In this document: piece after piece, positions 40,464-58,087 of the stretch
How the letters are laid out: every line of letters starts with the position of its first letter
Position numbering within the stretch: the stretch's first letter is position 1
Assembly: GCF_031822435.1 (NCBI RefSeq)
Contig: NZ_JAVQLW010000001.1
Coordinates: 2,786,523 to 2,850,522, forward strand
From: Paracoccus sp. MBLB3053
GTDB lineage: Bacteria; Pseudomonadota; Alphaproteobacteria; Rhodobacterales; Rhodobacteraceae
Length of the DNA stretch: 64,000 nucleotides
Direction: 5' to 3'
The notes under the pieces: model-generated
Told to the model about the DNA's origin: nothing
What the model saw: only the letters and a program-made list of their open reading frames with translations
The model's database searches: none
Program-made: the position numbers and the translations under genes

Positions 40464-40509
40464 CCATTTGGACCAAGGCGGATACAGCCCCGGCAAAGCG
40501 GTCGGTCCC

Positions 40510-40538
40510 TTGCGCATGTGAAACTCCCGACCTATATT
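40510..40538 (+). promoter_or_regulatory. Promoter of ssrA
   Basis: TTGCGC (40510-40515) and TATATT (40533-40538) are separated by 17 bp. The first structured base of the tmRNA lies seven to eight bases further on, a normal start distance. Confidence 0.65.
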
Positions 40539-40545
40539 CCCCTTC

Positions 40546-40858
40546 GTCCGGGCTTGCCCGGACTATGGACATAAACGCGCAGGTAATAAGCGGATCGGAC
40601 CCGGGGGCGGTACCCGGCGGCTCCACCAAAATCCCTCGTTGGGGGCACTTGGGGCCGAAACAGGATCGACGAACGTCTAAAGCTGTTTGCTTTGTCTCGG
40701 TGAGCTACCACCGATATCGGTGCAAATTGTACAGTTGCCAACGACAACCGTGCTCCGGTGGCTCTGGCTGCGTAAGCAGTTCGAGTACCGAAACTTAAGC
40801 CCTTGCGCCTAGCAGCGTAAGGCGGGGCCCGCAGGAGCCTGGCAACAGAATCCTGCAC
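40546..40858 (+). ncRNA. ssrA: Circularly permuted (two-piece) tmRNA
   Basis: The acceptor piece comes first: it starts with the hairpin GTCCGGG-CTTG-CCCGGAC (40546-40563) and ends in CCGGG-loop-CCCGG (T-arm) and CGGCTCC-ACCA at 40628. After a short intervening stretch the coding piece begins with GGGGCCG at 40651, which pairs with CGGCTCC including the G3-U wobble needed for alanylation. The tag frame at 40737-40775 encodes ANDNRAPVALAA followed by TAA. The coding piece closes with a GCAGGA/TCCTGC helix. tmRNA rescues stalled ribosomes with SmpB. The exact ends are estimates. Its 3' end carries the integration site of the downstream element. Confidence 0.95.
40849..40858. repeat. attL core in the 3' end of ssrA
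   Basis: AATCCTGCAC occurs here and at 52087-52096 and marks the two ends of the element. In this copy it forms the 3' strand of the terminal helix of the tmRNA coding piece, so ssrA stays whole after integration. Confidence 0.75.
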
Positions 40859-40922
40859 TTTATTCCATTATCTGTAAGCATCTGATTTCCCTGCCTAATG
40901 GGTTTCCAGTTTTGCAACGGTT

Positions 40923-41957
40923 TTACAGTTTGCGTTCCCGATACGTGCTGAGGACGGTCTGGGCCGCTGCTACACGGTCTTGATGGCGGCTGTAACGCTC
41001 GACCATTTCGACCGACATTCCGATGGTGTCGCTGATCTGCTGGCCGGTGTATCCGGCGCGGCGAAGACGGATGACAGCATTCGCTCTGAGCCCGTGCCAG
41101 ACGACGCCGTCGAGTTCGTCGTGCTTGTCGCGGTATTTGTCGAATTCCTTCCACAACTGATTCGGGCTGACCGGCTTTCCGGTGTTCTTGCCGCTGTCTT
41201 GCAGCAGGAACGGCCCCGGCCGCTTTTCCCATGTCGCCATTTCCGCTTCCAGTTCGGGGAAGATCGGGCAGACGGGACGAACGCCGGTCTTCTTCTGCGG
41301 CAAGCTGATGGTGTTGCCGTCGACGTCGGTCCAGCCCATACGGACGATGTCGCTGGCGCGCTGGCCGGTGTAGCGGGCAAGGAAGAAAGCTCGACGCAGC
41401 ATCCCCGCCAGGTTCTTTTCCGCGAAGGTAAGCTGGTCGTCGGTCCAAGGCTCATGCCCGCCCTTCGACTCGAAGGTCTTCACGCCGTGGACGGGATCGG
41501 TATGCAGCAGCCCGACGGGACCGCGCGCCCATGAGCACATGCTGCGCAATGCATAGAGGATGTTATTTGCCCTGCCCGGCTTCACAGCCCCGATCTTGAC
41601 CATGAGTTCTTCGACATGGGCGGGACGCAAGTCTTCTGCCGGTAGGTTGCCCCAGAGGTCGCGCACGACTTCCAGATAGCGCCGATACTGCGATTGCGTG
41701 GCCGGGGTGATCTGTTTTCGCGCGGAAGGCCAAGAGGCGACGTAGGCATTAATCAACGCGCCGATGGTGTCGGTCCTCTCAGCGATGCCTTCCAACTGTC
41801 GGATGGTCGCCCAGAATTCGGGGGATCGGGGATCGTCGGGAAGGCGGATGCGTGGCCCTACGTCCGGCGTCCCGCGCCCGGTCTGATGGTAGTAGTAGAA
41901 CCTGCCCCGAGCCTTTACGCGGTGGACGCCTCGCGGCAGTTCGATCTTAGGTGACAC
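40923..41957 (-). CDS. Tyrosine-type site-specific integrase
   Basis: The 344-residue recombinase has an N-terminal arm-type DNA-binding region, a SAM-like core-binding domain (about residues 65-150) and a catalytic domain. The active-site residues are visible: Arg in RYTGQRASDIV, His-x-x-Arg in WHGLRANAVI, and the nucleophile Tyr in VERYSRHQD. Start GTG 41957 overlaps the Xis-like gene by 11 nt. It lies next to ssrA, 65 bp from the att core, as expected for an integrase using this target. Confidence 0.95.
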   Translation of the reverse strand: MSPKIELPRGVHRVKARGRFYYYHQTGRGTPDVGPRIRLPDDPRSPEFWATIRQLEGIAERTDTIGALINAYVASWPSARKQITPATQSQYRRYLEVVRDLWGNLPAEDLRPAHVEELMVKIGAVKPGRANNILYALRSMCSWARGPVGLLHTDPVHGVKTFESKGGHEPWTDDQLTFAEKNLAGMLRRAFFLARYTGQRASDIVRMGWTDVDGNTISLPQKKTGVRPVCPIFPELEAEMATWEKRPGPFLLQDSGKNTGKPVSPNQLWKEFDKYRDKHDELDGVVWHGLRANAVIRLRRAGYTGQQISDTIGMSVEMVERYSRHQDRVAAAQTVLSTYRERKL

Positions 41958-42189
41958 GGCCCAGCGCCTCCTTGAAGGGATCGGTCGGCGGCAATGGCGG
42001 GGCCAGACGGTCGACGACTTCGGGCCAGAAGTAGCGGACAGCACCCTTGTAGCGGCGCGGCTGCGGCAAGATGCCGTGGCGGGTCCATTCGTCGACGGTC
42101 GAGACGCTGGCGGACAGTTCCGCCGCCAAGTCTGCTTTCGAAAGGAACATGGGCGGACGCTCGCCTTTGACGACCGGCCGCTTCGTCAT
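41947..42189 (-). CDS. AlpA/excisionase-like HTH protein
   Basis: This 80-residue protein has a MerR-like helix-turn-helix of the HTH_17/AlpA type (SKADLAAELSASVSTVDEWTRHGILPQPRRYKG pattern, residues about 17-50), the usual form of recombination directionality factors. It overlaps both neighbours (ATGA with the upstream gene, 11 nt with the integrase), so int and xis are expressed together. In PICI-type satellites AlpA proteins also activate the element. Confidence 0.85.
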   Translation of the reverse strand: MTKRPVVKGERPPMFLSKADLAAELSASVSTVDEWTRHGILPQPRRYKGAVRYFWPEVVDRLAPPLPPTDPFKEALGRVT

Positions 42190-42503
42190 GCGCAATCCGC
42201 TTCCAGATCAATGCCGACGACTTCGCTGCCGACAATCATCAGCCGCGCCGCTGCCGCCTCAATCATCTCATGGCACACCAGCAGTTTAGCGGCTTGGTCT
42301 GCGAAGTTTTCAATGAGGCTCGTCATTGCCTCGGGCTCTGCTTCGAACCCGGTGCGCAATTCGTTCTTGGTCTTTGCGATCAAAGAGCCAGCAAGACGAA
42401 TGTGCGCCCCAAGATGCATCTGCCAGTCTGCACCGAAGTGCTCTTTCGGGAAGGGCACGGCATCGAATGAGATGCCAGAGTCGTTCGCGGGAATCGTGTC
42501 CAT
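42186..42503 (-). CDS. Small element protein of unknown function
   Basis: The 105-residue acidic protein is largely helical (residues 40-95, with KTKNELRTGFEAEPEAMTSL) and has no recognised domain. It is the first gene after the Arc-like regulator and overlaps the Xis-like gene by four bases, so it belongs to an int-xis operon. The composition is that of a small partner or adaptor protein. Function unknown. Confidence 0.65.
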   Translation of the reverse strand: MDTIPANDSGISFDAVPFPKEHFGADWQMHLGAHIRLAGSLIAKTKNELRTGFEAEPEAMTSLIENFADQAAKLLVCHEMIEAAAARLMIVGSEVVGIDLEADCA

Positions 42504-42514
42504 CGTTCTCTTTC

Positions 42515-42658
42515 CTATGCTTCCTGCCGTTCCATCCGCTCGCGGACGGCTCTGACGATTTCAGAATTCTGACTGCTGGCGTTCTTGCTCGCCTGCTCGA
42601 CCAGCCACGCCTTCACATCGGCAGGCAGTCTAAGGGGGAATGCGGCCTTTACTTGCAT
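42515..42658 (-). CDS. Arc-type ribbon-helix-helix repressor (47 residues)
   Basis: A short minus-strand frame with a GAGAGG ribosome site before ATG 42658. The protein shows the Arc/MetJ pattern: an N-terminal beta strand (AAFPLRLP), helix A (ADVKAWLVEQASKN) and helix B (SSQNSEIVRAVRERMERQE). Arc-like proteins act as dimers on inverted half-sites. It is divergent from the gene at 42769 across a 110-bp region that contains such repeats, and is a good candidate for the main repressor of the element. Confidence 0.85.
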   Translation of the reverse strand: MQVKAAFPLRLPADVKAWLVEQASKNASSQNSEIVRAVRERMERQEA

Positions 42659-42682
42659 GGTCCTCTCTTACACACACATCAC

Positions 42683-42734
42683 TGTCACCTCTAAGTGACA
42701 TTAGGTGTGCAATTGATGCCAGTCAAGAGTGACT
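42683..42734. promoter_or_regulatory. Operator repeats in the divergent regulator region
   Basis: TGTCAC-N6-GTGACA (42683-42700) is a perfect inverted repeat. A second one, AGTCA-AGAG-TGACT, lies at 42721-42734. Both share the GTGAC core and sit between the Arc-like gene and the divergent gene, where a ribbon-helix-helix repressor would bind. Confidence 0.55.
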
Positions 42735-42768
42735 ATAGAAGGCACACAAGAGATGACACGAGGAAGAC

Positions 42769-43224
42769 ATGGCCAAGGAACCAGAAGAGGACACACCGTC
42801 GGGACCGGACAACATCCGACGCGTCTACGCCCTTCCAGCCGAGATGGTGGAGCGGATCACCAAGTTCCAAAAGGACAAGGGCCTTACGTCAGAGGTTGAG
42901 GCCGTTAGACGTCTTCTTGATGAGGCGCTCAAAACACGGGACAATCTTGAGACGTTGATAAATCGAATCTTGGCAAAACTCGGACAAACGAAAATCGCCT
43001 CTGAAGCTGCCCGCGATGTTCTAGTCGGGCATCCGCTGGTGGCCTCGATCTCATTCGGTGACGACTATGTTCAGTTTTCACTGAAGAACGAAATGACCGC
43101 TCGCGTGTTCGAGAACGGAAAGGTTGAAATCGTCAGCCGGGGCTACGGTGAAGCCGACTGGGAATTTTGGGACGACAAGAACAGGTATAAAGGCGGCGGC
43201 TTTGATATTGGCGTTCCGTTCTAG
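42769..43224 (+). CDS. Ribbon-helix-helix-like protein with unknown C-terminal domain
   Basis: The 151-residue product has a CopG-like N-terminal part (RRVYALPAEMVERITKF, then LTSEVEAVRRLLDEAL; residues 17-60), a helical linker and a beta-rich C-terminus with several aromatic residues (DWEFWDDKNRYKGGGF). It is divergent from the Arc-like gene and on the opposite strand to nearly all other element genes. It could be the counter-regulator or lysogenic-state cargo. Only the DNA-binding half is recognisable. Confidence 0.65.
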   Translation: MAKEPEEDTPSGPDNIRRVYALPAEMVERITKFQKDKGLTSEVEAVRRLLDEALKTRDNLETLINRILAKLGQTKIASEAARDVLVGHPLVASISFGDDYVQFSLKNEMTARVFENGKVEIVSRGYGEADWEFWDDKNRYKGGGFDIGVPF

Positions 43225-43234
43225 GGATCGAGAA

Positions 43235-43444
43235 ATGACAGACGCGGTTTGGTATTTCGACCGGAACGGGACGCCCGCCTTCTATCGGGACGGCGACAAC
43301 GTCTTCAAAGACGGGAAGCGCATTTACTGGATTTCGAGCGGCAACTGGTATTCGAATGCCTCCGGGCCTGTCCGACGGGCGTTCTATGAGTCGGAGAAAT
43401 GGCTCATTGACGATACCGGCACCGGCCAGTTCTACCGCTCTTAA
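43235..43444 (+). CDS. 69-residue aromatic-rich small protein of the element
   Basis: Starts 10 nt after the previous gene with a GGGA ribosome site. The product is rich in Tyr, Trp and Phe and seems to be mostly beta strands (AVWYFDRNGTPAFYRDGDN, RIYWISSGNWYSN). It has no signal or membrane helix. It is in an operon with the regulator-like gene and converges with the head gene cluster. No family recognised; it may be cargo. Confidence 0.6.
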   Translation: MTDAVWYFDRNGTPAFYRDGDNVFKDGKRIYWISSGNWYSNASGPVRRAFYESEKWLIDDTGTGQFYRS

Positions 43445-43468
43445 CCGGCCCCTGCCTGTTAAGCCCTC

Positions 43469-43855
43469 TTACGCCTCGACCATGACCTCGATCTGAATGA
43501 CGCCGTGAATGGTAACGCCGTCGGGATCGTCCATGATGCGCACCAGCGACACGGATGCCGGGTGCATGGTCAGGGCGTTCTGATCGGCCCAGCCATTCAG
43601 CGCCGCCGCGACATCGTCGACCACATCCTCGGCCGCACCCTTGCTCGCCTGACTATGCCAGATGTCCGCCTGCAACGTGACCTCACGGGCCTCGATGCAT
43701 TCGACCGAGCCGTCGGTCCAATAGCTCGGCCCTAATGTGCAGTATGGGAAGATGGCGTCCTCAGTGGCACGGTCATAGACACGGCCACCCAGCGCCGGAA
43801 CCTGATCCTTGATCCGCGCAATGACGATCTGCCGCAGAGTTCTTCCGGCGCGCAT
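43469..43855 (-). CDS. DUF3168 / gp17-like tail completion protein
   Basis: This 128-residue protein matches the DUF3168 family (RVYDRATEDAIFPYCTLGP, EVTLQADIWHSQ, VDDVAAALNG), which includes the lambdoid and SPP1 gp17-type tail-terminator or head-tail joining proteins. It is the last gene of the leftward head operon, and no tail tube or tape-measure gene follows. Its role here may be to cap the head for joining to tails supplied by a helper phage. Confidence 0.85.
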   Translation of the reverse strand: MRAGRTLRQIVIARIKDQVPALGGRVYDRATEDAIFPYCTLGPSYWTDGSVECIEAREVTLQADIWHSQASKGAAEDVVDDVAAALNGWADQNALTMHPASVSLVRIMDDPDGVTIHGVIQIEVMVEA

Positions 43856-43858
43856 GGG

Positions 43859-44173
43859 TCAGTCCTCCACTAGCATTGCAAGCATGGCGTCCTCACGACG
43901 CGGGTCTTCCTTGAGGTCGAAGGTCCGGTCGTCGATTTCGACGCGCCATTCGGATGTGATCTGCCGCGCAGCCGCGAAGTCGCGGATGGTGACGACGGCC
44001 GGGGCCTTCGACTGTAACCGCGCCTGCATAACCGCCTCTGATCCGCGCAGATAACGGATGTGCGCCGCGCAGGTGAATTGCAGAGTCCAGCCTTGGACAA
44101 TCATGCCGTCGGCGTCGACTTCCTCGACAGGCTCATAGAAGCCCGCGCGCCGGGTCAGTTCGGATGCGTTCAT
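43859..44173 (-). CDS. Phage head closure / head-tail adaptor protein
   Basis: The 104-residue protein has the beta-rich pattern of gp16/Gp7-like head closure proteins (GFYEPVEEVDADGMIVQGW, VTIRDFAAARQITSEWRVEIDD, FDLKEDPRREDAMLAMLVE). Such proteins close the portal after DNA filling. Start ATG 44173 overlaps the zinc-knuckle gene by four bases; it is followed by the gp17-like gene after three bases. Confidence 0.8.
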   Translation of the reverse strand: MNASELTRRAGFYEPVEEVDADGMIVQGWTLQFTCAAHIRYLRGSEAVMQARLQSKAPAVVTIRDFAAARQITSEWRVEIDDRTFDLKEDPRREDAMLAMLVED

Positions 44174-44451
44174 GTCTTCGCCCTCTTGCGCCGTTCCCGC
44201 TTCCGCAGGTTTTCCATGTGAACCGCACAACGCAGTGTGCAGTATCGCGCCAGCCCGTGAACCTCGGCCGGGATCGGGGTCTTACACCAGCCGCAGACAC
44301 GATCCGCCCTGGCGTCCAGCCGCGCCGCTTTCCGCAGTCGGTATTCATCGGCACAACAGCATTTCGGGCTGCAATAGAGCCGGATATTCGACATCTTCGT
44401 CACCGGGATGACGCCGCCGCAGAACCGGCAATGGTCGGTAAAGCTCAGCAT
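44170..44451 (-). CDS. Small protein with two zinc-knuckle motifs
   Basis: The 93-residue product holds two C-x2-C ... C-x3-C motifs (CRFCGG ... CSPKC and CGWCKTP ... CTLRC), each typical of a treble-clef or zinc-ribbon knuckle, and a very basic C-terminus (RKRERRKRAKT). It overlaps both neighbours, TGATG upstream and ATGA downstream. Placed within head genes, it may bind DNA or act in packaging or a host takeover step. Function not known. Confidence 0.7.
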   Translation of the reverse strand: MLSFTDHCRFCGGVIPVTKMSNIRLYCSPKCCCADEYRLRKAARLDARADRVCGWCKTPIPAEVHGLARYCTLRCAVHMENLRKRERRKRAKT

Positions 44452-44960
44452 CAGATCCAGCCCCCTTGATGGTGCTGAATGCGGTCCCAGATGGTTTCCT
44501 CACTCGCTTGACGCCGGGCATTCAGCCGGTAGTTGTGAACCTTCGCGCAGCCGCTTGAGCAAAACTTGAAGTGCCCTTGCGGCAAAGGACCGTGGCATTT
44601 TGCACAGCGGGTCCGCTCAATCAGAGCGCCGCTGCATATTGCCCAATCCGGCTGACCTTCGTCCCAAGCCGGCCGAATGGCCCGCACCTTGAGGAAGGCA
44701 TCGTCGAGAAGATCGCGCGCCGCCAGATCGGCGGTCTGCCAGCCCCACCCCTGTCGACACAGGTCAGACCGGATGCCTGCCCTTAGCGGCCCTTCCAGCC
44801 CGAACAGACTGCCAGTGTCGCCAGCCTCAAATGCCAGCCAGATCACGCGGGCCAGTTCCTTGACCAGCATGTTATAGCGGCGCTCGCCCAGACGCCCACG
44901 ACGCGCGTCCCTCGCCCGCCGCTCTTTCCGATTGATGAGATGGGCGGGCATCTGCAACAC
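44451..44960 (-). CDS. Element protein with a C-terminal zinc knuckle
   Basis: The 169-residue protein has a basic N-terminus (LINRKERRARDARRGRLG), a helical middle part and a C-terminal C-x2-C ... C-x3-C motif (CAKCHGPLPQGHFKFCSSGC). This is the same kind of knuckle as in the next gene, suggesting a shared origin. GTG 44960 gives the best spacing to an AGAGGA ribosome site; ATG 44951 is possible. It lies between portal and head closure, where canonical HK97 phages have no such gene. Confidence 0.6.
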   Translation of the reverse strand: MLQMPAHLINRKERRARDARRGRLGERRYNMLVKELARVIWLAFEAGDTGSLFGLEGPLRAGIRSDLCRQGWGWQTADLAARDLLDDAFLKVRAIRPAWDEGQPDWAICSGALIERTRCAKCHGPLPQGHFKFCSSGCAKVHNYRLNARRQASEETIWDRIQHHQGGWI

Positions 44961-44964
44961 GGGC

Positions 44965-46185
44965 TCAATCCTCTTTGGGTGCGGCCTTCTGTTCCGACTG
45001 CATGTTCATGGGGCTGAGGAAGACATCTGCGTCGGCGTCGGATCGTGGATTGAGATGCTCGAAGCGGCGCAGGTCATTGGCGCTGTAGAGCCCCGTCTCC
45101 CGGCCGATACGGTAGCCTTGCAGGCGGGTCAGGAAGTCGGCGCGGACCAGAAGGTCGGTGTCGAATTCGACTTCATGGTTCCGACGTCCGGCATCGCTGA
45201 AAAGGTCGCGCATGATGGCTTCCTCCCAGCGGACCAGCCACGGCTGCACGGTCCCGGCCGCGAATTGGCGGCGCAGTTCGACGACGTTGGAATAGTTCGC
45301 GCCTGACAGTTCTTGCAGCAACGGCGGCGGAACGTTGAAGATTCGCGCGACTTCCAGAACGGCCAGCCGACGGGCTTCCGACAGTTCGGCGTCATGGGCG
45401 GTCGAGGATACAGAGACCCAATCGCTGCCTTCTTCCAGCACGCCGATCTTGCCCGCATTCTCGGCCCCGCCATAAAGCGCATTGAGGCTGTCGCGCAGTG
45501 TGCGGGCAGCGTCAGGGCCAATCTGTTCAGGATGCTTCACAAAGCCGCTCAGACGGGCGCCATTACGCCAGATGGATTGTGCGAAGCGTTCGGTCGCCAC
45601 AGCGCCGCCCAGCGCCTCGCGGCAGCGATCCAGACGCGAGCGGGGCGTAAAGGGATCGTCCCAGCGGTCGCGGATGGTGAAGACTTCGTCGGGCAATAAG
45701 CGGCGAGTGCCGACTTCGTCGCTGACCTGATAGCGGATGCGCCGGGTGCCGGGGATTCGCTCGATGTTGATCTGCCCCGGATGGACCGGCCACAGCGCCA
45801 CGGGTCGACCGTTGCCGTCCCGCTCGATCTCGGCATAGGCAGCGCCGAAAATCAGGCAGTTCGCCTGCATCATGGCGACAAGCTCGGTGGGTGTCTGTAG
45901 ATCGTTCGGGGCGATCGTGAAGAGCCGGGCCACGGGATGCGACGCCTCGACATCGCGGACGCCGTCACCGTCCTTGCGATACACGTTGAGCGGAAGCGCC
46001 GCGACAGCCTCAGAGATGACCGTCACGGCGTTGAATGCGGCGGCATTACCTTCGACAGCGGCAGGCGCAATGCAGCCCCCTGCCAGCGAAGGCAAGCCCA
46101 ATGTCGCCAGCAAGTCCCAGGATGTGGCGCGGGTTTCTCCAGATTTGGAGACACCCCTGCGAAGGATGCGGTCGAGGATGCTCAT
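44965..46185 (-). CDS. HK97-family portal protein
   Basis: The 406-residue portal has the family patterns NAVTVISEAVAALPLNVYR, NDLQTPTELVAMM, and in the wing and stem region the RLAVLEVARIFNVPPPLLQEL and NVVELRRQFAAGTVQPWL motifs. Twelve copies would form the DNA entry vertex. It starts four bases inside the protease stop. In this element it follows capsid and protease instead of preceding them. Confidence 0.93.
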   Translation of the reverse strand: MSILDRILRRGVSKSGETRATSWDLLATLGLPSLAGGCIAPAAVEGNAAAFNAVTVISEAVAALPLNVYRKDGDGVRDVEASHPVARLFTIAPNDLQTPTELVAMMQANCLIFGAAYAEIERDGNGRPVALWPVHPGQINIERIPGTRRIRYQVSDEVGTRRLLPDEVFTIRDRWDDPFTPRSRLDRCREALGGAVATERFAQSIWRNGARLSGFVKHPEQIGPDAARTLRDSLNALYGGAENAGKIGVLEEGSDWVSVSSTAHDAELSEARRLAVLEVARIFNVPPPLLQELSGANYSNVVELRRQFAAGTVQPWLVRWEEAIMRDLFSDAGRRNHEVEFDTDLLVRADFLTRLQGYRIGRETGLYSANDLRRFEHLNPRSDADADVFLSPMNMQSEQKAAPKED

Positions 46186-46694
46186 AGGCAGGTATCCAGG
46201 AAGCGGCGGGCGGCAACCAATTTGCCAGACGCGGCCAGTCGCCGCCTCGCCTGCACTATTGTCCCGTCGTAGGCAGGGAACGCCGAGACAATGCTGATTT
46301 CGTGAAGATTGATGCTGCGAAGTTCGCGGCGGCTTTCCTGCCAGCGTTCATCCTTGACAGTGAAGCCAAAGGAAGCCCCGCCGACGTCGCCACGCTCGGC
46401 CAGTTCGAGAATGTCGCGGCCAAAGCTGGTATTCGGAACGTCGAGTTCGAAATGCAGACCGCGCGTGTCCTCGGCCAGTCGCAGCGTCCCTGAGCGGGTG
46501 CGGGCCAGAACAGCGCGTTCGTCATGATCGGCAAGGGCAAGGATGTCCCTGCCCCCTGCCAGCGTGTCCTTGAAGGCGCCGGGAATGATGACTTCGGTGA
46601 AGTCCCGGATGCGGGTGTCCTGACCGAAGACGGCGGCATAGCCTTCCAGCTTGCGACCAGCGGCCCGAAGTTCAATCGAAGCCCGGCGTTCCAT
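46182..46694 (-). CDS. HK97-family prohead protease
   Basis: This U35-type serine protease (170 residues from ATG 46694) matures the prohead. Features are GRKLEGYAAVFGQDT, the catalytic-histidine region LALADHDERAVLARTRSG, and the serine motif GGASFGFTV. It begins one base after the capsid gene and overlaps the portal gene by four bases. The upstream open frame lies inside the capsid gene and was not used. Confidence 0.92.
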   Translation of the reverse strand: MERRASIELRAAGRKLEGYAAVFGQDTRIRDFTEVIIPGAFKDTLAGGRDILALADHDERAVLARTRSGTLRLAEDTRGLHFELDVPNTSFGRDILELAERGDVGGASFGFTVKDERWQESRRELRSINLHEISIVSAFPAYDGTIVQARRRLAASGKLVAARRFLDTCL

Positions 46695-46695
46695 G

Positions 46696-47955
46696 TCAGA
46701 CTTCCAGATCGTCAGCGACCGCGAAGCTTTCCGCATGGCGGACCGCGACGTCGACATCCTGCATCGCCCGAACCTGCACGCGTCCCCGCGCATAGGCAGT
46801 ATCGCCATAAGGGTTGACCAGCAGGTCGAGACCGGACCAGCGACCAATTAGCAGTTGCGACCATGCGCCGAAGATCACGGTCGAGGTGTCAGGCGTTCCT
46901 GCTGCGGTCGGAATGGCGGTCGAGGTGCCAACGCCATAGCCCGCCAGATTGCCGGGATCGGTCATCAGGAAGCCATGCTCAGGCTCGGCTGATACCTTGT
47001 TCGTGCCGCGCAGCTTAGCGACCGCTGCCGGGTTCATGGCCCAGTTCAGCGAACCGATGTCGGCGTCTTCGTTCTGAATGTCGGCAATCATCGCCAGCAC
47101 TTCCGACCAGCTGGGGGTCGCCAGCGTCGAGGATGCCACGCCAGCGGCGTTGACGACGCCGACGGGGGTGTTGCCGGTGCCAGTGCCGAAGATCGCCTGA
47201 TAGTCGATTGCACGGGCCACCACAGCGGCCAGATCGCGGCGGACAAGCTGTTCGACGGCAGGGACCGCGTTAATCATGGTGCGGCGGCTGTAGCTGGTCA
47301 GGGCGCCGACAGTCTTCGGTGACAGGTTGACGTCGGTGAAGTTCGCGTCGGTTTCCGTCAGGGCAGCATCTTCGGCCAGCCATTGCGCTGCGGACGATGC
47401 GGTCTGCTTGGGAATGTCGATGGTGCCGACAAGTCCGTCCAGCACGGTCGCGCCCAGCCGGGCGGTCATGATCGCGCTGCGGCGCATGTCGATGAACAGA
47501 TCGCCGCGATGCACGTTCGGGACCAGATCGGCAGCGGCGCCAGAGGTCAGGAGGGTTCGCTTTTCGAGGAAGACTTCGTCAGGGACCGCGATGCCGGTGA
47601 AGGCTCGACCAGAACGGCGTTGCAGTTCCGCCGATAGTTCGCGTTCGCGGCCGTCGTCGACACGCTCGCCCATGGCTGCACGGATTGCGGTCGTCAGGCT
47701 GAATTCACGGGCGCGGTCTTCATATGCACCATCGCCACGGCCAGAGACGACGGCAGGCGCGCTGCGTTCCATCTCGGCAATGTCTTTGGCACGCTGAATC
47801 TTCCCGTCCAGTGCGGTGATGTCGCGCTTGAGGTCGGCGTGGCGCCTTTCCTCATCGGCGGTATAGTCGTCGCCACGGGTTTCGACAGCATCAGCCAGAC
47901 GGCGCATTTCCGCGACCGCCTGACTGCGCTGTTCTTGCAAGTCATGAATGCGCAT
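46696..47955 (-). CDS. HK97-family major capsid protein
   Basis: The 419-residue protein has a coiled-coil delta domain at the N-terminus (about residues 1-75, MRIHDLQEQRSQAVAEMRR) that the protease would remove. The HK97 capsid fold follows (LTSGAAADLVPNVHRGDLF, WLAEDAALTETDANF, AIFGTGTGNTPVGV, LLVNPYGDTAYARGRVQ). ATG 47955 has an AAGGA ribosome site. It lies directly after the large terminase, so the order here is terminase-capsid-protease-portal. Confidence 0.94.
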   Translation of the reverse strand: MRIHDLQEQRSQAVAEMRRLADAVETRGDDYTADEERRHADLKRDITALDGKIQRAKDIAEMERSAPAVVSGRGDGAYEDRAREFSLTTAIRAAMGERVDDGRERELSAELQRRSGRAFTGIAVPDEVFLEKRTLLTSGAAADLVPNVHRGDLFIDMRRSAIMTARLGATVLDGLVGTIDIPKQTASSAAQWLAEDAALTETDANFTDVNLSPKTVGALTSYSRRTMINAVPAVEQLVRRDLAAVVARAIDYQAIFGTGTGNTPVGVVNAAGVASSTLATPSWSEVLAMIADIQNEDADIGSLNWAMNPAAVAKLRGTNKVSAEPEHGFLMTDPGNLAGYGVGTSTAIPTAAGTPDTSTVIFGAWSQLLIGRWSGLDLLVNPYGDTAYARGRVQVRAMQDVDVAVRHAESFAVADDLEV

Positions 47956-48036
47956 TGTTGATCCTTCAAAGGGCTTGGCGCGTCTCACGACGGGCCTGTT
48001 CGAACAGGTTAATAATACGTCAGCACTTCTTACCTA

Positions 48037-49644
48037 TCAAGCAATGAATACGCCCCGTTGCGCGTAGACCGAACGCTTTGGCGCCGGGGTCCGCGCGGCC
48101 AGACCGATCGCCATTGCCGCCGCCTGCAAGCCGTCAATCCGGCCTGTCGCCTTGGCCTTGTCCAGCTTGCGCCCGCCTGCCGGGTTCATCGTCGCAATCG
48201 CATTGGCGACACACATCGTCAGGGCAGGATTGTTCGGATGCCTGAGTTCGCCTTGCAGGACCAGCTTCTCGACCGCGTCCAGCGCCGGTGCCATGTCCTG
48301 AAAGCCCTGCCCCCATGCTTCCATCGGCAGCTTGACGCCCTCGTCCGCCATGATTCGCTCGACTTCCTTCATTCCCCAGCGGTCGAACGCCACGCCCTGC
48401 ACGTCATAGAGCGCCGCAATCTCGGCCAGACGACAGACGACGAATCCCTTGTCGATCGCCCTGCCCGGCGTTGCCTCGATGAAGCCCTGCCGCACCCATG
48501 TCTTATATGGCACATGGTCCATCCGTTCAGCTTCGTCCAGCCCGTCCTTAGGCTTCCAGAACCATGCCAAGAGGTCGCCGGTATCGGGGAAAAACGCTGC
48601 CAGAGCCGTGAGGTCGACGGTCGACGACAGGTCGAGCCCCAGATAGCAGCGCCGCCCTTTCAGCGTCTCGATGTCGATGTCCGCCGCGCAAGCCCGCCAG
48701 TCGGGCGCCGCCAGGAACCGGGCTTCTGACTCGACGCGCATGTTCAAGCGCAGGTTCATGAAGCGCGGCAGGAATGACGGCGCTCGCTTGGCCCGCTCGG
48801 CTTGGCTGCGGAATTCCTTTTCGTCGAGGAAGATGCCCCATGCCGGATTTACGGCCTGCCAGAGCTTGTCGTCGAACGGGTCTGCATCTTCCGGCGCGGC
48901 GGTCATCTGCAAGTAGACCGTCGGGTCGACGCCCTTCTTCGCGTCGTCGATCAGGATGCTGAGCGGGTGCTGGTCGGTCGCTGCCTGCGTCGAGATGACG
49001 ATGCCCAGCGATTCCTTGCGCTTGCCCTGAGCCGTTTGCAGGTTGTCGAACAGCTCGTCGGTGCGGACTTGCGCATACTCGTCATACACCCACAGCGACG
49101 GGGCCAGACCGTGACCGCGCCGGACATCGGCCGAAAGCGCCTCATAGGTCGAGCCTTTGCCGTCGCCGGCCAGAACCTCAATGATCTTGTGGAACCGCTG
49201 GACGTTGCAACGTTCGTCGAATTCGGGAACGGCCTCGATGATTGCCGACATCTCATTGAACAGCAGCGACGCCTGCTTCTTGTCGACGGCCGCACTGTAA
49301 ATCTCGCCCCGCTGTTCCGCTTCCGGCCCGATCAGATGGCACAGACAAAGCCCGGCAATGAGCCCGGTCTTGCCGTTGCCGCGCGGTTCCGACTTGATGG
49401 CGGTCCTGATGGTGCGCCTGCCGTCGGCGTCGACGTTGCCATAGATGGCTTCGATGAATTGACGCTGGTTCGGCAGCAGCTTCATCTTCTTCCCGGCCAA
49501 GATGCCTTTGGTGATCGGCAGGAATTCCATGAAGGCGACGACACGTTCCACACGGGACAGCCCGCGCTTGCTCCAAGGCAAGCGACGCTGCGGCATCGGC
49601 TCGACGCCCTTGCGCCTTTTAGCCCCCGGACCACGCAAACCCAT
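48037..49644 (-). CDS. Phage terminase large subunit
   Basis: TerL (535 residues) is the DNA-packaging motor. The ATPase domain has Walker A SEPRGNGKT at residues 85-93 and Walker B LWVYDEYAQ, followed by a coupling motif (GIVISTQAATD). The nuclease domain begins near YLGLDLSSTVDLTALA with its metal-binding aspartates. ATG 49644 begins four bases after the HNH gene. No small subunit gene is recognisable next to it. Confidence 0.94.
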   Translation of the reverse strand: MGLRGPGAKRRKGVEPMPQRRLPWSKRGLSRVERVVAFMEFLPITKGILAGKKMKLLPNQRQFIEAIYGNVDADGRRTIRTAIKSEPRGNGKTGLIAGLCLCHLIGPEAEQRGEIYSAAVDKKQASLLFNEMSAIIEAVPEFDERCNVQRFHKIIEVLAGDGKGSTYEALSADVRRGHGLAPSLWVYDEYAQVRTDELFDNLQTAQGKRKESLGIVISTQAATDQHPLSILIDDAKKGVDPTVYLQMTAAPEDADPFDDKLWQAVNPAWGIFLDEKEFRSQAERAKRAPSFLPRFMNLRLNMRVESEARFLAAPDWRACAADIDIETLKGRRCYLGLDLSSTVDLTALAAFFPDTGDLLAWFWKPKDGLDEAERMDHVPYKTWVRQGFIEATPGRAIDKGFVVCRLAEIAALYDVQGVAFDRWGMKEVERIMADEGVKLPMEAWGQGFQDMAPALDAVEKLVLQGELRHPNNPALTMCVANAIATMNPAGGRKLDKAKATGRIDGLQAAAMAIGLAARTPAPKRSVYAQRGVFIA

Positions 49645-49648
49645 GCAA

Positions 49649-50002
49649 CTAACCCTTTTCCGATGGGGGACGCGGGTGTGACGGCCCATTTGCCGGTGAT
49701 TGAACGCCCCCCGGATGCCACGGATGATCCGGGTCGAGCGGCATTCCATCCGCGTCACAGCCCCGATGCTTTGGCAGCACCCATGCCTTGCCCTGCCGTT
49801 CGGCGTGGGTCTTCTGATTGTGACAAGGTTGGCAGACCGACATCCAGTTCGACGGGTTCCAGACCAGACCGCCACGCTTCACAGGGACGATATGGTCGAC
49901 ATGCTCGGCAGGTCGCTTGTCACATGCTTGGCAGATCGGATCACGCGACAGCTTCGTCCGCCTGCACTTCTGCCACCTGCTTGTGTCGTAGAACCGGGTC
50001 AC
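49649..50002 (-). CDS. HNH endonuclease of the packaging module
   Basis: The 117-residue nuclease has the HNH core HVDHIVPVKRGGLVWNPSNW...CQPCHNQKT with a CxxC zinc pair before it (CQAC). In HK97-like phages and in capsid-forming islands an HNH protein sits beside the terminase and is needed for cos cleavage and packaging. Start GTG 50002 overlaps the connector stop (GTGA). Confidence 0.92.
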   Translation of the reverse strand: MTRFYDTSRWQKCRRTKLSRDPICQACDKRPAEHVDHIVPVKRGGLVWNPSNWMSVCQPCHNQKTHAERQGKAWVLPKHRGCDADGMPLDPDHPWHPGGVQSPANGPSHPRPPSEKG

Positions 50003-50322
50003 GGCTCGACGTCGTCTTCGGCTTCCTCGCATTCCCTGACCGCTGGGTCTTTCCAATCGCGCAACTGATGAATGAGACTGCGGACATGGAACGGGACAAC
50101 GCGGTCGCCGCCGCTGGTCAGTTCCCTGTTCTGATACCAATGTGTCGCAAGCGCGATGATGGCGAAGCAAGCCCGCTCTGGCATTTCGTCCACATAGTCA
50201 TGCCCCGTTGCAGTCCGCACATATTCCGATGCTGCATTGAGCAGGTTGGCAAGCGTGGCGTCTTCGTCGTCGAAGTCGACGCGGGCATACAGTTTAAGGG
50301 CGCCGAGATCGGGAAAGGGCAT
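49999..50322 (-). CDS. gp6-like head-tail connector protein
   Basis: The 107-residue protein fits the phage gp6-like connector family: LGALKLYARVDFDDEDATL, LNAASEYVRTATGHDY, ALATHWYQNRE and VPFHVRSLIHQLR. These form the ring below the portal. In most HK97-type phages it follows the capsid gene; here it is upstream of HNH and terminase. ATG 50322 is chosen to start the conserved segment; the open frame continues upstream into the inverted-repeat region. Confidence 0.85.
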   Translation of the reverse strand: MPFPDLGALKLYARVDFDDEDATLANLLNAASEYVRTATGHDYVDEMPERACFAIIALATHWYQNRELTSGGDRVVPFHVRSLIHQLRDWKDPAVRECEEAEDDVEP

Positions 50323-50475
50323 AGAGGTCCATCCAAGGGCTAGGCACGCTTCACAGCGGGCAGGATCAATATACCAGACGCCGATTAGGTCAGCAACGCT
50401 GTCGTATTGCGTCCCGCGATGTCGGGGCGGGGCGGAACGGCGCATGATTTCAATACAGGACAATCACTTAGGTCT

Positions 50476-50613
50476 GAAATGTTCCACATATGGAGAGGGA
50501 ACCGGATGGAGTCGACGACCTTTGAACCGACCACCCGTCCCCACCCGTTCCTTCCCGTCCCGGCGCAGTCCCGCAGGCGGGGAAGACCGTCCCCTCCATA
50601 TGTGGAACATTTC
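50476..50613. repeat. 20-bp perfect inverted repeat in the element's only large non-coding gap
   Basis: The 20 bases at 50476-50495 and their exact reverse complement at 50594-50613 are separated by 98 bp (the arms contain TTCCACATATGGA). With one mismatch the arms extend to 23 bp. The 340-bp gap (50323-50662) carries no convincing gene and lies between the polymerase-like gene and the packaging genes. It may be a replication origin, a packaging site or an RNA structure. Confidence 0.7.
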
Positions 50614-50662
50614 CCAATTTTATAGCATGAATTCAAAGACATGATGCGCCGAAAATCGGTCG

Positions 50663-51781
50663 TCATTTCTGCGATACCGACATCATCCAAAGCCCGGCCT
50701 GATTGGCGGCTTTCAGCATGACTTCTTCCAGAAGATCGCGCTTAGATGCTGGCACAAGGAACGAGTCATGCACGGGCAGCGCGACGACGCCCTTGTCCAG
50801 CATGTCGGACATCACGCAACTGGCGATGTCACTGTCTATGGTCATCAGCCTTGCGCCCGCATCGCTATGGAACGCGTGGGCAATCGGCCGGTGCATGACC
50901 TTGATGGCGTCAATGAGTTCGCCAGCAGCACGCAAGGCAGCTTGTGAACCAAGAGGCGCGACCGCTTCCATAGGGTCCGCATGGGCAAGTGCATGGCGGG
51001 CCTGATGCGGCGTTTGAGCGTTTATCAGGATCAGCAGCGCGACCTTGACCAGCTTTCGCGGCCAGCCCGCAATCTCGTAGCAATCCGACGGCATCGTCGC
51101 GCCAGCCTCGGCATAGAGAATGGCCGGATGCAAAGTCTTGTAGTCCAGTTCGACGACCGGCTCGCCGCTGATGGTCACAGCGCGACGCGCTTCCGACGGA
51201 AGATTCTGCCAGCTTGGCCCCATAGCGTAGTGGCGCCCCCCGCGCTTCGATGTCTGATTATAGATGCGGGCCAGCGGTGCCACGACTGAGGCGTCCAGCC
51301 CAGCGCCCGCGATGGCCTCATTGAAACGAATGACCTGCTTGCGCTTCCGGTCTAGGTCGCGCGTATTCCGGTAATCCAGAAGGTTGCCGTCGGCGTCGCG
51401 CAGAAGAATGACCTCGGCAGGGCGGGCCAATGTCGGGACCGATGTGCCAAGGATCTTCGCATGAATTCCGCGCAGGTCATCGGTTGCCCGAAGCGCACTT
51501 TGCCAGCCCCGTTCGCCGGGCGGACGACGGTCATGGTCAATCAGCCCTTGCTGGTCGAGGTAATCGACCTGAGACACGACCTTGCGATAGGTATAAAGCC
51601 CGTTGCGGTATCGCTTAGGCACTTCGTAATGACGGGCGGTTCGACTGTAGCTTATCCATCCATCCGCATTGCAGATGTCCAGGATGATAGCTGCCCCGGT
51701 CGGCGCGACGCCTATCTCGGCCTCGAACGCCTTCCAGAGCAACTTCGTTTCGAACCGCAGCGAAAGCGGCTGTTGGCTCAC
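50663..51781 (-). CDS. Winged-helix plus family-A polymerase-like palm protein
   Basis: The 372-residue protein has an N-terminal winged-helix-like region (about 25-100, IILDICNADGWISYSRTAR). Its C-terminal half follows DNA polymerase A motifs in order: GRHYAMGPSWQNLP (182-195, like the GR..LQNIP motif), motif A ELDYKTLHP with Asp213, an O-helix-like PRKLVKVALLILINA (241-255), and motif C PVHDS with Asp339. It lacks exonuclease domains and is about half the size of Pol I cores. It is the likely replication protein of the element. GTG start; overlaps the previous stop by one base. Confidence 0.7.
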   Translation of the reverse strand: MSQQPLSLRFETKLLWKAFEAEIGVAPTGAAIILDICNADGWISYSRTARHYEVPKRYRNGLYTYRKVVSQVDYLDQQGLIDHDRRPPGERGWQSALRATDDLRGIHAKILGTSVPTLARPAEVILLRDADGNLLDYRNTRDLDRKRKQVIRFNEAIAGAGLDASVVAPLARIYNQTSKRGGRHYAMGPSWQNLPSEARRAVTISGEPVVELDYKTLHPAILYAEAGATMPSDCYEIAGWPRKLVKVALLILINAQTPHQARHALAHADPMEAVAPLGSQAALRAAGELIDAIKVMHRPIAHAFHSDAGARLMTIDSDIASCVMSDMLDKGVVALPVHDSFLVPASKRDLLEEVMLKAANQAGLWMMSVSQK

Positions 51782-52083
51782 TACAGGGCGCCCTCGACCA
51801 GCCCCGTCAGCCCGGCGTCGCTAAGCTGTTGCCGCACCTGATTGGCGTGGCCCGGCGACACACAGATGATGACTTCGTCAAGCGCGTCGGGACGGTGAAC
51901 GGTGATGACGTCCCTGCCCTCGGCCTTCTCAATATGGAACCAGCCTTTCGGCCTCATGCTGAGTCGATCAGCCAGCGAAAGCGTTTTACAGTTGGCTCCG
52001 GTGTTCTGGGTCTGGTCCTGCTTTTCGCGCAAGTCCTTGGAAAACAGTTTCGCTTCCGCTTCAAGCGGATGACCTGTCTTCAA
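51781..52083 (-). CDS. Small element protein at the attR end, function unknown
   Basis: The 100-residue protein has a charged N-terminus and a compact C-terminal half (WFHIEKAEGRDVITVHRPD, EVIICVSPGHANQVRQQL) without a recognised family. The likely start is TTG 52083, whose ribosome site GCAGGA is the reverse complement of the att core. The first gene of the element is therefore read from a signal supplied by the att site. It is coupled to the polymerase-like gene. Confidence 0.6.
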   Translation of the reverse strand: MKTGHPLEAEAKLFSKDLREKQDQTQNTGANCKTLSLADRLSMRPKGWFHIEKAEGRDVITVHRPDALDEVIICVSPGHANQVRQQLSDAGLTGLVEGAL

Positions 52084-52086
52084 TGA

Positions 52087-52096
52087 AATCCTGCAC
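52087..52096. repeat. attR core
   Basis: AATCCTGCAC repeats the ssrA 3'-end sequence at 40849-40858 in the same orientation. Beyond the core, several bases on each side also match (CAA before, TT and CATT after). It lies 71 bp before the proA start. Confidence 0.75.
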
Positions 52097-53552: not shown

Positions 53553-54209
53553 CTAGAATGCGATCTCGCCACCCCTTTCATCCAGTTCCCAGCTCAGATG
53601 ACGGCCCTCACGCTGAGCAAAGCATCCAAGCAAAGCGAAATGTACCTCGGATGGCGCGGGTTCTGGCCGATCACGTCCGGCCTCGGCATCAAGCCAGCTC
53701 CACAGTGCCGGGTCCAGCTTGGTCCGCGCAGCCTCTGCCAGAAGCCGCCACCCGGTCGCGCCTCGGCATACAAGTATGGTTCCGCCCCAAGGCATTGCCG
53801 TCTCCAGACACATGAGCGCGAGCAGGATCAGCCGAGCTTCCGGTCGTGGCAAATCGCCCTGCGCGTCCAGCCGCAGCCGAAGCCGCCCGCCCTTTTCGAC
53901 ATCCCCCAGAAGCGATGAAAGCTCTGCAAGGCTGATCCGCTGATCGGGCGATGACTGGCCAAACCCGATCCGGAACCAGCGGACCCTCGCGCGGGCGGCC
54001 TCGATGCTTTCGGCAACCAGCACCAGTTCAGGACTGTCCGAGATGCCGGGCCATTCGCCGGACAGTTCGAGCAGCTCCAGCCCATTGCCGATCGCCCCCA
54101 GGGGCGAGACGAGATCGTGGCACAGGCGCGAACATACCAATGCGGCCAGCCGTTCAGGCTCGATCGGCAGTCGGGGTGAGGAGTTGCGGCTGATTGTCAG
54201 ATCGTCCAT
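53553..54209 (-). CDS. chpT: Histidine phosphotransferase ChpT
   Basis: ChpT (218 residues) passes phosphate from CckA to CtrA (and CpdR) in the alphaproteobacterial phosphorelay. The dimerisation and phosphorylation helix LVCSRLCHDLVSPLGAIGNGLELLE holds His31, and the C-terminal part is a degenerate histidine-kinase ATPase-like domain without ATP motifs. It converges with proA and is divergent from the DUF3553 gene. In Rhodobacteraceae this relay controls motility genes and gene transfer agent production. Confidence 0.9.
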   Translation of the reverse strand: MDDLTISRNSSPRLPIEPERLAALVCSRLCHDLVSPLGAIGNGLELLELSGEWPGISDSPELVLVAESIEAARARVRWFRIGFGQSSPDQRISLAELSSLLGDVEKGGRLRLRLDAQGDLPRPEARLILLALMCLETAMPWGGTILVCRGATGWRLLAEAARTKLDPALWSWLDAEAGRDRPEPAPSEVHFALLGCFAQREGRHLSWELDERGGEIAF

Positions 54210-54249
54210 CGAGGTCTAGCCTTGGTTGTGCCGCAGGAAGGATCGCGAC

Positions 54250-54426
54250 ATGAATGAAATCCTTGAACCCGGAATGCTCGTCCGACACCCCGGCGCGCCT
54301 GAATGGGGGGTGGGTCAGGTCCAGTCACGTATCGGGGACCGCATCACCGTCAATTTCGCGAATGCCGGCAAACAGGTCGTCGACGGCCGCAATGTCAGCC
54401 TGGAGCTCGTCAACAACTACTCATAA
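54250..54426 (+). CDS. DUF3553 family small protein
   Basis: The 58-residue protein has the DUF3553 pattern: ILEPGMLVRHPGAPEWGVGQVQS and ITVNFANAGKQVVD, an SH3-like barrel related to the CarD/UvrD C-terminal (Tudor-like) domain. ATG 54250 has an AAGGAT ribosome site. It lies in a 360-bp gap between the divergent chpT and olsB. Its role is unknown; RNA polymerase or helicase interaction is suggested by fold relatives only. Confidence 0.85.
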   Translation: MNEILEPGMLVRHPGAPEWGVGQVQSRIGDRITVNFANAGKQVVDGRNVSLELVNNYS

Positions 54427-54441
54427 TTTATAGTGCAAGAA

Positions 54442-54512
54442 TTAATGCAACTTAAGATTGTGTCAATCCCCCCGCCCGCGCAATCGAGGAACGGCATGTG
54501 CTGTTGCATTAA
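54442..54512. promoter_or_regulatory. 10-bp inverted repeat in the olsBA promoter region
   Basis: TTAATGCAAC (54442-54451) and GTTGCATTAA (54503-54512) are perfect inverted copies, 51 bp apart, ending 57 bp before olsB. The left arm is part of TTAA-N6-TTAA (54442-54455), one base short of the usual CtrA spacing. No Pho box was found. Confidence 0.45.
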
Positions 54513-54569
54513 GGACCGCGCCCGCCTAACACATGCGGCAGAAGAAACAGACTTGGCCCAATCCATAAG

Positions 54570-55352
54570 ATGACGCTCGACGGCTCGTATTTCGAAACGC
54601 GGCTTGCCACGGATGAGGCCGATCTGCTTGCTGTCCAGCGGCTGCGCTACCGGGTGTTCGTCGAGGAACTGGGCGGAGACGGCTCGCTGGTCGATCACCA
54701 GCGCAGGCTGGAGCGCGACGAATTCGACCCGATCGTCGATCACCTGATCCTGGTTGATCGGCGCAGGTCCAAGGACGATCTCGAACATGTCCTGGGCGCC
54801 TATCGGCTGCTGCCCGGAGATCGCGCCGAAAAGTTCGGCCGGTTCTACTGTGACGCGGAATATGATCTGGACCCACTGCGTCGCTCGGGCAGGTCGCTTC
54901 TGGAACTTGGTCGATCCTGCATGGACGCCGAGATGCGCGGCGGGACAGGCATGTTCCTGCTGTGGAATGCGCTTGCCGAATATGTTCTGGGGCGAGAGAT
55001 CGAGCTTCTCTTCGGCGTCGCCTCGTTCCATGGCATCGACACCAACCAGCACGCCCAGTCCCTGACCTGGCTGCACGAGCACCATCTGGCGCAAGAGCAT
55101 ATCCGACCGGTCGCCCGCCAGACGGGCTATCATCGCATGGACCTTGTGCCCCAGGCCGATCTGGACCGGCGCGTCGCAATGGCGAACATGCCCCCGCTCA
55201 TCAAGGCCTATCTGCGCCTTGGCGGCATGATCGGCGAAGGCGCGTATCTTGACCGCGAATTCAACACCACGGACGTGTTCTTGCTGGTGGACACTGCGGC
55301 GATGTCGGCAAAGCACAAGAAATTCTACGAAACCCGCTGGCAGTCCCAATGA
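54570..55352 (+). CDS. olsB: L-ornithine N-alpha-acyltransferase
   Basis: OlsB (260 residues) attaches a 3-hydroxyacyl chain from ACP to ornithine, making lyso-ornithine lipid. It is a GNAT-like acyltransferase of the OlsB group: LLAVQRLRYRVFVEELGG at the N-terminus, RSLLELGRSCMDAEMRGG in the core and LFGVASFHGIDT. It overlaps olsA by four bases, and the pair makes the complete two-step pathway for phosphorus-free membrane lipids. Confidence 0.92.
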   Translation: MTLDGSYFETRLATDEADLLAVQRLRYRVFVEELGGDGSLVDHQRRLERDEFDPIVDHLILVDRRRSKDDLEHVLGAYRLLPGDRAEKFGRFYCDAEYDLDPLRRSGRSLLELGRSCMDAEMRGGTGMFLLWNALAEYVLGREIELLFGVASFHGIDTNQHAQSLTWLHEHHLAQEHIRPVARQTGYHRMDLVPQADLDRRVAMANMPPLIKAYLRLGGMIGEGAYLDREFNTTDVFLLVDTAAMSAKHKKFYETRWQSQ

Positions 55353-56203: not shown

Positions 56204-56215
56204 TGCCCCGGCCGC

Positions 56216-57994: not shown

Positions 57995-58087
57995 GAATAT
58001 CCTGTCCCGTGCGCCGCTAAATCACGGCCCTTACGATGGGTTTTAGAATATTTTTCTGCGCTGCCGCAAGCGAAACGCAGGCCAGAT

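Follow-up and report, generated by a model that had tools for sequence, protein, structure and literature searches.

What kind of mobile element has entered the tmRNA gene of Paracoccus sp. MBLB3053, and can an island that appears to encode a phage head and no tail be a functioning entity? These questions were raised by a stretch of 64,000 nt (NZ_JAVQLW010000001.1, positions 2,786,523-2,850,522, forward strand; hereafter the window, whose own numbering is used for coordinates unless otherwise stated), in which the first-pass annotation had described an 11.2-kb element between two copies of AATCCTGCAC and had preferred a capsid-forming phage satellite to a prophage that had lost its tail half. 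That preference was supported by selection, by recurrence and by the boundaries of the element, and the island is very probably a living, capsid-forming phage satellite. It is no lone remnant, as numerous related islands occur in Paracoccus and allied bacteria. Genomes are denoted here by G codes (G000, the window's own genome; G161, P. thiocyanatus) and compared loci or contigs by L codes.

Insertion site and boundaries

The site of insertion is defined by three features:

40506..40859, plus strand: permuted tmRNA gene ssrA, the integration target, left whole (Rfam RF01849, ARAGORN)
40849..40858, plus strand: integrase-side copy of the attachment core, AATCCTGCAC (core shared by relatives, both empty and occupied)
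52087..52096, plus strand: attachment core, distal copy (63 bp before proA)

The coordinates of the two flanking cores were confirmed at 40849-40858 and 52087-52096, giving a core-to-core span of 11,238 bp. The left core lies inside the 3' end of the permuted ssrA and the right core 63 bp before the start codon of proA. Identification of the target as a permuted tmRNA gene was likewise borne out, as the Rfam model RF01849 alpha_tmRNA (40506-40859, 293 bits, 1-355/355) and the ARAGORN call (tmRNA*, 40536-40866) were in agreement. A bare 10-mer repeat is weak evidence, with 0.22 matches expected and two copies found in 3 of 100 shuffles. The stronger evidence came from ssrA loci elsewhere in the genus. 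The ssrA search matched 121 of 125 genomes, and the loci read were the 30 returned (the window's own and 29 others). Twelve of these 29 were empty, the core being followed by the proA start within 58-93 bp (one start extrapolated), six carried the related integrase, or a piece thereof, after the core, and in 11, as read, neither proA at that spacing nor a related integrase was found. As the empty loci run from the core straight into proA, the window is read as carrying an insertion of 11,238 bp, with ssrA itself staying intact. Both the reality of the island and the placement of its ends were upheld; an assembly artefact or a chance repeat was ruled out by the empty ssrA-proA sites, despite the weakness of the 10-mer itself.

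Gene content of the island

The following genes were recognised between the cores:

40923..41957, minus strand: tyrosine integrase (PF00589, 1.6e-9; phrog_1, 5e-35; open reading frame (ORF) extends to 42044)
41947..42195, minus strand: AlpA/MerR-like excisionase/regulator, 82 aa (PF13411 at cut-off; phrog_66 'excisionase and transcriptional regulator', 2.5e-6)
42186..42503, minus strand: g105, 105-aa protein (without Pfam, PHROG or NCBIfam match)
42769..43224, plus strand: 151-aa protein, candidate master repressor (phrog_16979, 2e-39, no function; weak phrog_4738 'transcriptional repressor', 0.0026)
43235..43444, plus strand: 69-aa small protein (71% identical copy in P. thiocyanatus)
43469..43855, minus strand: tail terminator/neck protein, 128 aa (PF11367, 1.3e-17; phrog_176)
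43859..44176, minus strand: head closure Hc1, 105 aa, start approximate (PF05521, 2.4e-16; phrog_25)
44170..44451, minus strand: z93, small, cysteine-rich, zinc-ribbon-like, neighbour of g169 (phrog_3794, 4e-4, no function)
44451..44960, minus strand: g169, hallmark protein (predicted helical domain and C-terminal Cys4 zinc-finger-like motif)
44965..46185, minus strand: portal (PF04860, 3.5e-88)
46182..46847, minus strand: HK97-type prohead protease, S78 (PF04586, 6e-42; TIGR01543 above cut-off)
46696..47955, minus strand: HK97-fold major capsid protein (MCP) (PF05065, 1.4e-38; start from homologue L007)
48037..49644, minus strand: large terminase TerL, HK97 group (PF20441/PF03354; start from L151 homologue)
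49649..50170, minus strand: HNH endonuclease, true start probably internal to the ORF (PF01844; phrog_2323, 8e-25)
49999..50463, minus strand: head-tail adaptor Ad1, gp6-like (PF05135, 2.9e-11; phrog_40, 1e-25)
50663..51781, minus strand: minimal right-hand polymerase (family A DNA polymerase/single-subunit RNA polymerase superfamily), probable replication protein
51781..52083, minus strand: 100-aa protein (74% in P. thiocyanatus; 38-47% in L007/L008)

The integrase, AlpA/Xis-like factor, polymerase-like protein and HK97 head/packaging set named in the first-pass annotation are present in open frames. TerL, MCP and the integrase were given corrected, probable starts (49644, 47955 and 41957, respectively), and the strand of the genes at 42769-43224 and 43235-43444, which lie on the plus strand, was corrected too. 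The integrase start was proposed because homologues show a stop just upstream of it. Read on the minus strand from 52083 down, the order is 100-aa protein, polymerase-like protein, Ad1, HNH, TerL, MCP, protease, portal, g169, z93, Hc1 and terminator. The two plus-strand genes begin 265 bp from g105 and diverge from the g105-AlpA-integrase group. A repressor facing the excision operon is the usual layout with divergent genes, and as the island matches this arrangement, the 151-aa protein is a candidate for the master repressor.

The absence of tail, tape-measure, holin and lysin genes had also been claimed. Searches of Pfam, PHROG and NCBIfam with the island ORFs gave no match to a family of tail-tube, tape-measure, tip, holin or lysin proteins, and this part of the claim stood; it required amendment in that a terminator/neck protein is present at 43469-43855. 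No ORF contains a strongly hydrophobic segment, the highest 19-residue Kyte-Doolittle mean being 1.58 (portal).

Open frames and purifying selection

Every frame had been reported as intact, and all 17 island frames were indeed found to translate without a stop, with 94% of the span coding. Ratios of nonsynonymous to synonymous substitution (dN/dS) against relatives were 0.07-0.10 for TerL, 0.075-0.16 for the portal, 0.10-0.22 for MCP, 0.17-0.29 for Ad1, 0.20-0.36 for the protease and 0.18-0.32 for g169 (one g169 pair having saturated dS), and 0.09-0.33 for the integrase, AlpA, Hc1, the 100-aa protein and a partial polymerase. The head genes are under purifying selection, and the broken head genes that had been named as grounds for rejecting a satellite were not seen. 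In-frame stops in several homologues (the integrase of P. thiocyanatus and G130, the MCP of L007 and the protease of L008) were considered as signs of broken genes and dismissed, as they fall in aligned columns 4-23, upstream of the likely starts.

Relatives at the same ssrA site

A search of 125 Paracoccus genomes (window included; E 1e-60) returned a related integrase in eight, and each time the integrase, or a piece of it, adjoins ssrA. Three of these elements are head-only as read: those of the window, P. thiocyanatus and G052. P. thiocyanatus carries a near copy of 6,953 bp between the same cores (integrase 89% and portal 91% identical), while the 10,202-bp element of G052, with an integrase of 60% identity, contains another head module, its TerL and capsid being 28-29% identical to those of the window. 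A third module, with tail-tube proteins, is found in G138 and G130, the element of the latter measuring 11,608 bp and having lost the stretch from terminator to tape measure. In both of these tail-bearing elements the head is readable and differs from that of the window. Related integrases at one site therefore carry three virion modules, and the pairing of one integrase type and one site with different modules would, if the satellite reading is right, offer a direct test of which of the joints linking head and tail a satellite is able to cross. Relatives with a full tail and lysis genes at this site, which had been sought as a refutation, were not seen in the eight genomes, four of which have partial tails and three of which are cut by contig ends.

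The same head set at other sites

Without a tail, this head set turns up again at several sites, in members of two bacterial orders. In Paracoccus sp. 2205BS29-5, TerL, MCP, protease and portal are found at 80-89% identity in a tail-less element of 10,476 bp between 49-bp repeats at tRNA-Ala, together with a different integrase and a weakly primase-like gene; no match to Hc1 or the terminator was seen in this element. In Chelativorans, which we take to lie outside Rhodobacterales, the head set is again tail-less and stands beside the tmRNA, the far-end repeat not being established. Seven IMG/VR contigs of 4.8-12.6 kb, some of them fragments, encode a related portal (65-91%). The metagenome contig L151 (9,932 bp) has a 127-bp terminal repeat, which marks a circular or terminally redundant molecule, and encodes TerL (53%), portal (53%), MCP (60-67%), polymerase (63%), protease (47%), HNH (44%) and Ad1 (35%), alongside small ORFs of regulator-like appearance. 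Neither an integrase nor a tail gene could be recognised in this contig, where the profile scan covered four of the small ORFs. A 111-aa ORF of L151, outside that scan, resembles head closure by eye. Circularity was also suggested for L125 by a split capsid gene, and was rejected for lack of overlap between the contig ends. Relatives differ in the replication gene that accompanies this head set: the polymerase in the window, a primosomal protein in L045 and weaker primase-like or initiator-like matches in L007 and L043.

Across the wider family, this head type is rare, since a portal search of 394 genomes (nearly one per genus; E 1e-80) matched the window only. A capsid search of 101 relatives returned six genomes (the window, G045, G021, G079, G059 and G009). 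Of these, G021, another Paracoccus genome, has a fragment of the gene, 78% identical to that of the window, where a contig ends (L055), and G079, G059 and G009 have matches of 33-40%. Against phage records, all portal (1,547 records) and TerL (1,745 records) matches were below 60% identity, and a megablast comparison of the complete island with phage and plasmid records produced no match.

Several observations weigh against a living satellite. A partial tail is present in four of the eight elements at ssrA (tube proteins in G130, tube and tape measure in G138, tape-measure matches in G135 and G113), and the odds of the satellite reading were lowered on this account. Three (G135, G113 and G004, the last too fragmented to class) are cut by contig ends, beyond which a full tail could lie. 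Some copies decay: that of P. thiocyanatus is internally deleted, its polymerase joined to the capsid, and the G113 integrase aligns only in shifted pieces. The dN/dS of HNH was 1.45 against L007, a figure that we read as distorted by the overlap of HNH with Ad1, and the terminator was left out of the comparison as it has no homologue to compare. No TerS was recognised in the window, nor among the ORFs scanned or compared in L007, L008, L043, L045 and L151, the sole TerS-family signal in the window being a weak helix-turn-helix match of the AlpA-like protein. TerS diverges fast, and its absence from profile searches is no proof of its absence.

Several of these points, namely the deleted P. 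thiocyanatus copy, the shifted G113 integrase and the four partial tails, would fit the in situ decay of a temperate siphophage whose tail and lysis half is gone, as would the 43.6% identity of TerL to that of full-tailed HK97-group phages. Such a remnant would not, however, be expected to keep 17 of 17 frames open with 94% of its span coding and its head genes under purifying selection, nor should its tail-less head set recur at ssrA, at tRNA-Ala, beside the Chelativorans tmRNA and in a terminally redundant contig; the portal and TerL matches to phage records, all below 60%, also speak against it. On selection, recurrence and boundaries, the decaying prophage was judged unlikely. The capsid-forming satellite is retained, and would, if true, make head-making satellites common in a major group of environmental bacteria.

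Comparison with capsid-forming satellites

The island was compared with the capsid-forming phage-inducible chromosomal islands (cf-PICIs; prototype EcCIEDL933). According to the passages of PMC10690885 on these elements, they encode MCP, protease, portal, connectors, TerL, TerS and HNH and need a helper only for tails; a mean size of 14 kb is given in a portion of PMC10803314, and three radiations of their capsids in a portion of PMC11389934. The capsid set (MCP, protease, portal, connectors; PMC10690885, same passages) and the integration set (integrase, AlpA-type regulator, specific site; PMC10803314, same portion) are both found in the island, at 11 kb against the 14-kb mean. From the packaging set, TerL and HNH are present, with no TerS match beyond the weak helix-turn-helix. 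As in cf-PICIs, no tail was recognised. The island differs in being alphaproteobacterial, in having no recognised TerS and in its g169, which was not found in phage records. The statement that its content is that of a cf-PICI could therefore be kept for the head set, TerL, HNH, integrase and AlpA, and not for TerS. By analogy, the island may work like a cf-PICI, with presumed helper dependence and presumed particles; it was not filed as one because no TerS was recognised and helper dependence is presumptive.

Two records of 15-16 kb deposited as phages, Pasteurella phage Pmp8 (OR544139.1, L069) and Escherichia phage vB_KppS-Ant (LR881103.1, L068), look like capsid-forming satellites. In the annotation of the latter (16.5 kb), a tape-measure protein directly follows the terminase. 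A cf-PICI in the strict sense, sharing common descent with the gammaproteobacterial and Firmicute elements, would account for the MCP-protease-portal order with HNH and adaptor, which matches Pmp8, and for the identity of the portal (35-36%) and protease (41-45%) to both records. Descent of this kind is nevertheless rather doubtful, as TerL is only 26-27% identical to those of Pmp8 and vB_KppS-Ant against 43.6% to HK97-group phages, MCP has no BLAST match in either record, no TerS was recognised, g169 is not in phage records, and the replication proteins differ, Pmp8 having an annotated primase in place of the PolA-like minimal polymerase. Portal bit scores were also higher for some gut Firmicute phages (220 vs 204).

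Other capsid-encoding satellites were less similar. Vibrio cf-PISP satellite-plasmids, described in part of PMC13230959 as capsid-encoding, tail-less and episomal, are comparable with the terminally redundant L151, in which an integrase was not seen; they differ, in that part of the source, in a capsid that clusters with gammaproteobacterial cf-PICIs and in carrying parA/repA, where L151 shows head genes, the polymerase and small regulator-like ORFs. Streptomyces MulchRoom and MiniFlayer are, in the relevant passages of PMC10690885, satellites with capsid and packaging genes, the MulchRoom tail being ascribed to the helper; unlike the island, they have virulent helpers, direct terminal repeats and other hosts, and those passages report no significant homology to cf-PICIs. 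HK97-group temperate phages share the portal, S78 protease, capsid, HNH and TerL families, but have the tail and lysis genes that were not found in the island. In the open-licence literature, no description of head-making satellites in this group turned up among the matches listed, nothing joining Rhodobacterales with a phage satellite was found, and papers joining Alphaproteobacteria, helper phage and satellites included none on this subject by title; the word 'satellite' is absent from the available part of a Paracoccus virome survey (PMC6536676).

g169, z93 and three virion modules

The protein g169 has 159 homologues, with no Pfam domain among the 120 listed, where the names given are rhodobacterial, and a 39% relative occurs in Chelativorans. 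A search of 50,697 phage records gave no match. Of 125 Paracoccus genomes, 18 encode it (two as partial matches); in a sample of the order it was found in 17 of 390 genomes, and in 12 of 139 genera. It is also present in 52 viral contigs, not all of which count as independent: L042 represents the element of P. thiocyanatus, and several from metagenomes resemble one another. Cysteines C119, C122, C134 and C138 are invariant in 32 sequences, which suggests a zinc finger. The AlphaFold2 model is helical (pLDDT 83, pTM 0.54), and no hit of a fold search reached significance (best E 0.93). By a count made by eye, 43 of the 52 viral loci have a z93-like match next after g169, and of the remaining nine most stop shortly beyond g169. 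Where present, g169 and z93 come after the last virion gene, at the point where a phage continues into its tail or tail tip, and one guess is that they are factors specific to satellites that act at a late stage, either on the helper or on packaging. The idea that g169 is a hidden small terminase was discarded, as several elements of type C, defined below, carry a TerS-like gene plus g169.

Among the 52 viral loci, 34 have a head-only module, 6 of them of type A and 28 of type B, and none of these, in the DNA as sampled, matches tube or tape-measure references. The other module, C, is present in 18, with a tube or tape-measure match in 15. Among 17 other loci of the genus set, two are type A, seven type B, six type C and two unclassed (one with a tape-measure match). 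The order in type C is portal, assembly chaperone, capsid protein (apparently protease-fused), HNH, one or two tail-tube proteins, Ad1, neck, terminator, Hc1, TerS, TerL, tape measure and tail-chaperonin-like protein, then g169/z93 if present. In G138 the element spans 17,949 bp between cores (G138:C1:82666-100615; L048, L056). The window's own genome holds another (G000:C1:2033528-2052446; L181, L182), of 18,905 bp with 14-bp repeats at tRNA-Ser(TGA), encoding an HK97 head set, tail-tube proteins and a tape measure, with no tail tip recognised. PF20155 gave no match in this genome, although comparison with G138 reveals a tape-measure-like gene in the element; the profile therefore misses this kind of tape measure. 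Past the tape measures of these two elements lie an anti-repressor and an acetyltransferase, and no tail-tip family was found among the ORFs scanned there, some small ORFs being outside the scan. G138 and loci L089-L093 have their own head, tube, tape measure and chaperones, and most end in g169/z93 at the tail-tip position. It is possible that type C elements are satellites borrowing the tail tip only; theft would then start further down the tail than the head-tail joint.

Taken tentatively, the island may belong to a separate large satellite family centred on Rhodobacterales rather than to a branch of the cf-PICIs, most members having g169-z93 and the family swapping integrases, replication genes and whole virion modules. 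With the same reserve, this family would possess three virion modules, two of them head-only and some 10 kb in size, the other, of some 18 kb, comprising head, tube and tape measure and needing only the tip from a helper. Confidence in this reading was lowered because no g169 match was found in the G138 and own-genome type C elements.

Proposed life cycle and source of the tail

As a satellite, the island would be expected to integrate by recombination of the 10-bp core at the ssrA 3' end by its integrase, the tmRNA staying whole, and to be kept silent, probably, by the divergent regulator. Entry or induction of a helper, most probably a tailed siphovirus, would lead to excision, aided by the small AlpA-like protein, and the island would replicate by its own minimal polymerase. 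An HK97-type head would then be built from its own capsid, protease and portal, filled through self-packaging by its TerL and HNH nuclease, and closed by its own adaptor, head-closure and terminator proteins, tail and cell lysis presumably being taken from the helper.

The nearest phage records of Hc1 (47% over 79% of its length, Rhizobium phage 16-3) and of the terminator (33%, Sinorhizobium phage AP-16-3) belong to the Rhizobium 16-3 group. A gene transfer agent (GTA) is a chromosomal cluster with head and tail and without integrase or att sites. The window's genome has one GTA-like cluster, so labelled provisionally, at C1 ~54000-59000 (L176), with DUF2460, Phage_tail_2 and HK97 capsid matches. 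The island itself was rejected as a GTA, as it has att sites and an integrase, no tail was recognised in it, and this separate cluster exists elsewhere in the genome. Three HK97 capsid genes are found in total, belonging to the GTA-like cluster, the type C element and the island. No second DUF2460 tail protein was detected in the genome, myo-/podophage and other tail families being outside the search. It could be proposed from this that the tails are borrowed from the host's own GTA and not from an infecting phage. This is very improbable: the neck proteins are nearest to phages of the Rhizobium 16-3 group, and the only neck match to the GTA-like cluster is that of the type C Hc protein, at 25%. 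The helpers of cf-PICIs, moreover, are phages, and these may be foreign to the strain, according to the pertinent part of PMC11389934.

The polymerase family

The polymerase family, phrog_4756, contains some 280 proteins and has no function assigned in the libraries searched. For the island member, of 372 aa, the prediction is a minimal polymerase of the right-hand type, with no room for an exonuclease domain, and fold comparison did not separate DNA from RNA polymerase (tied Z). The same family is encoded by the 13,249-bp contig L158 (IMGVR_UViG_3300026264_000055), which has a terminal repeat of 99 bp and no match to the reference head modules. Like g169 and z93, which also lack an assigned function in the searched libraries, the polymerase now has a biological setting.

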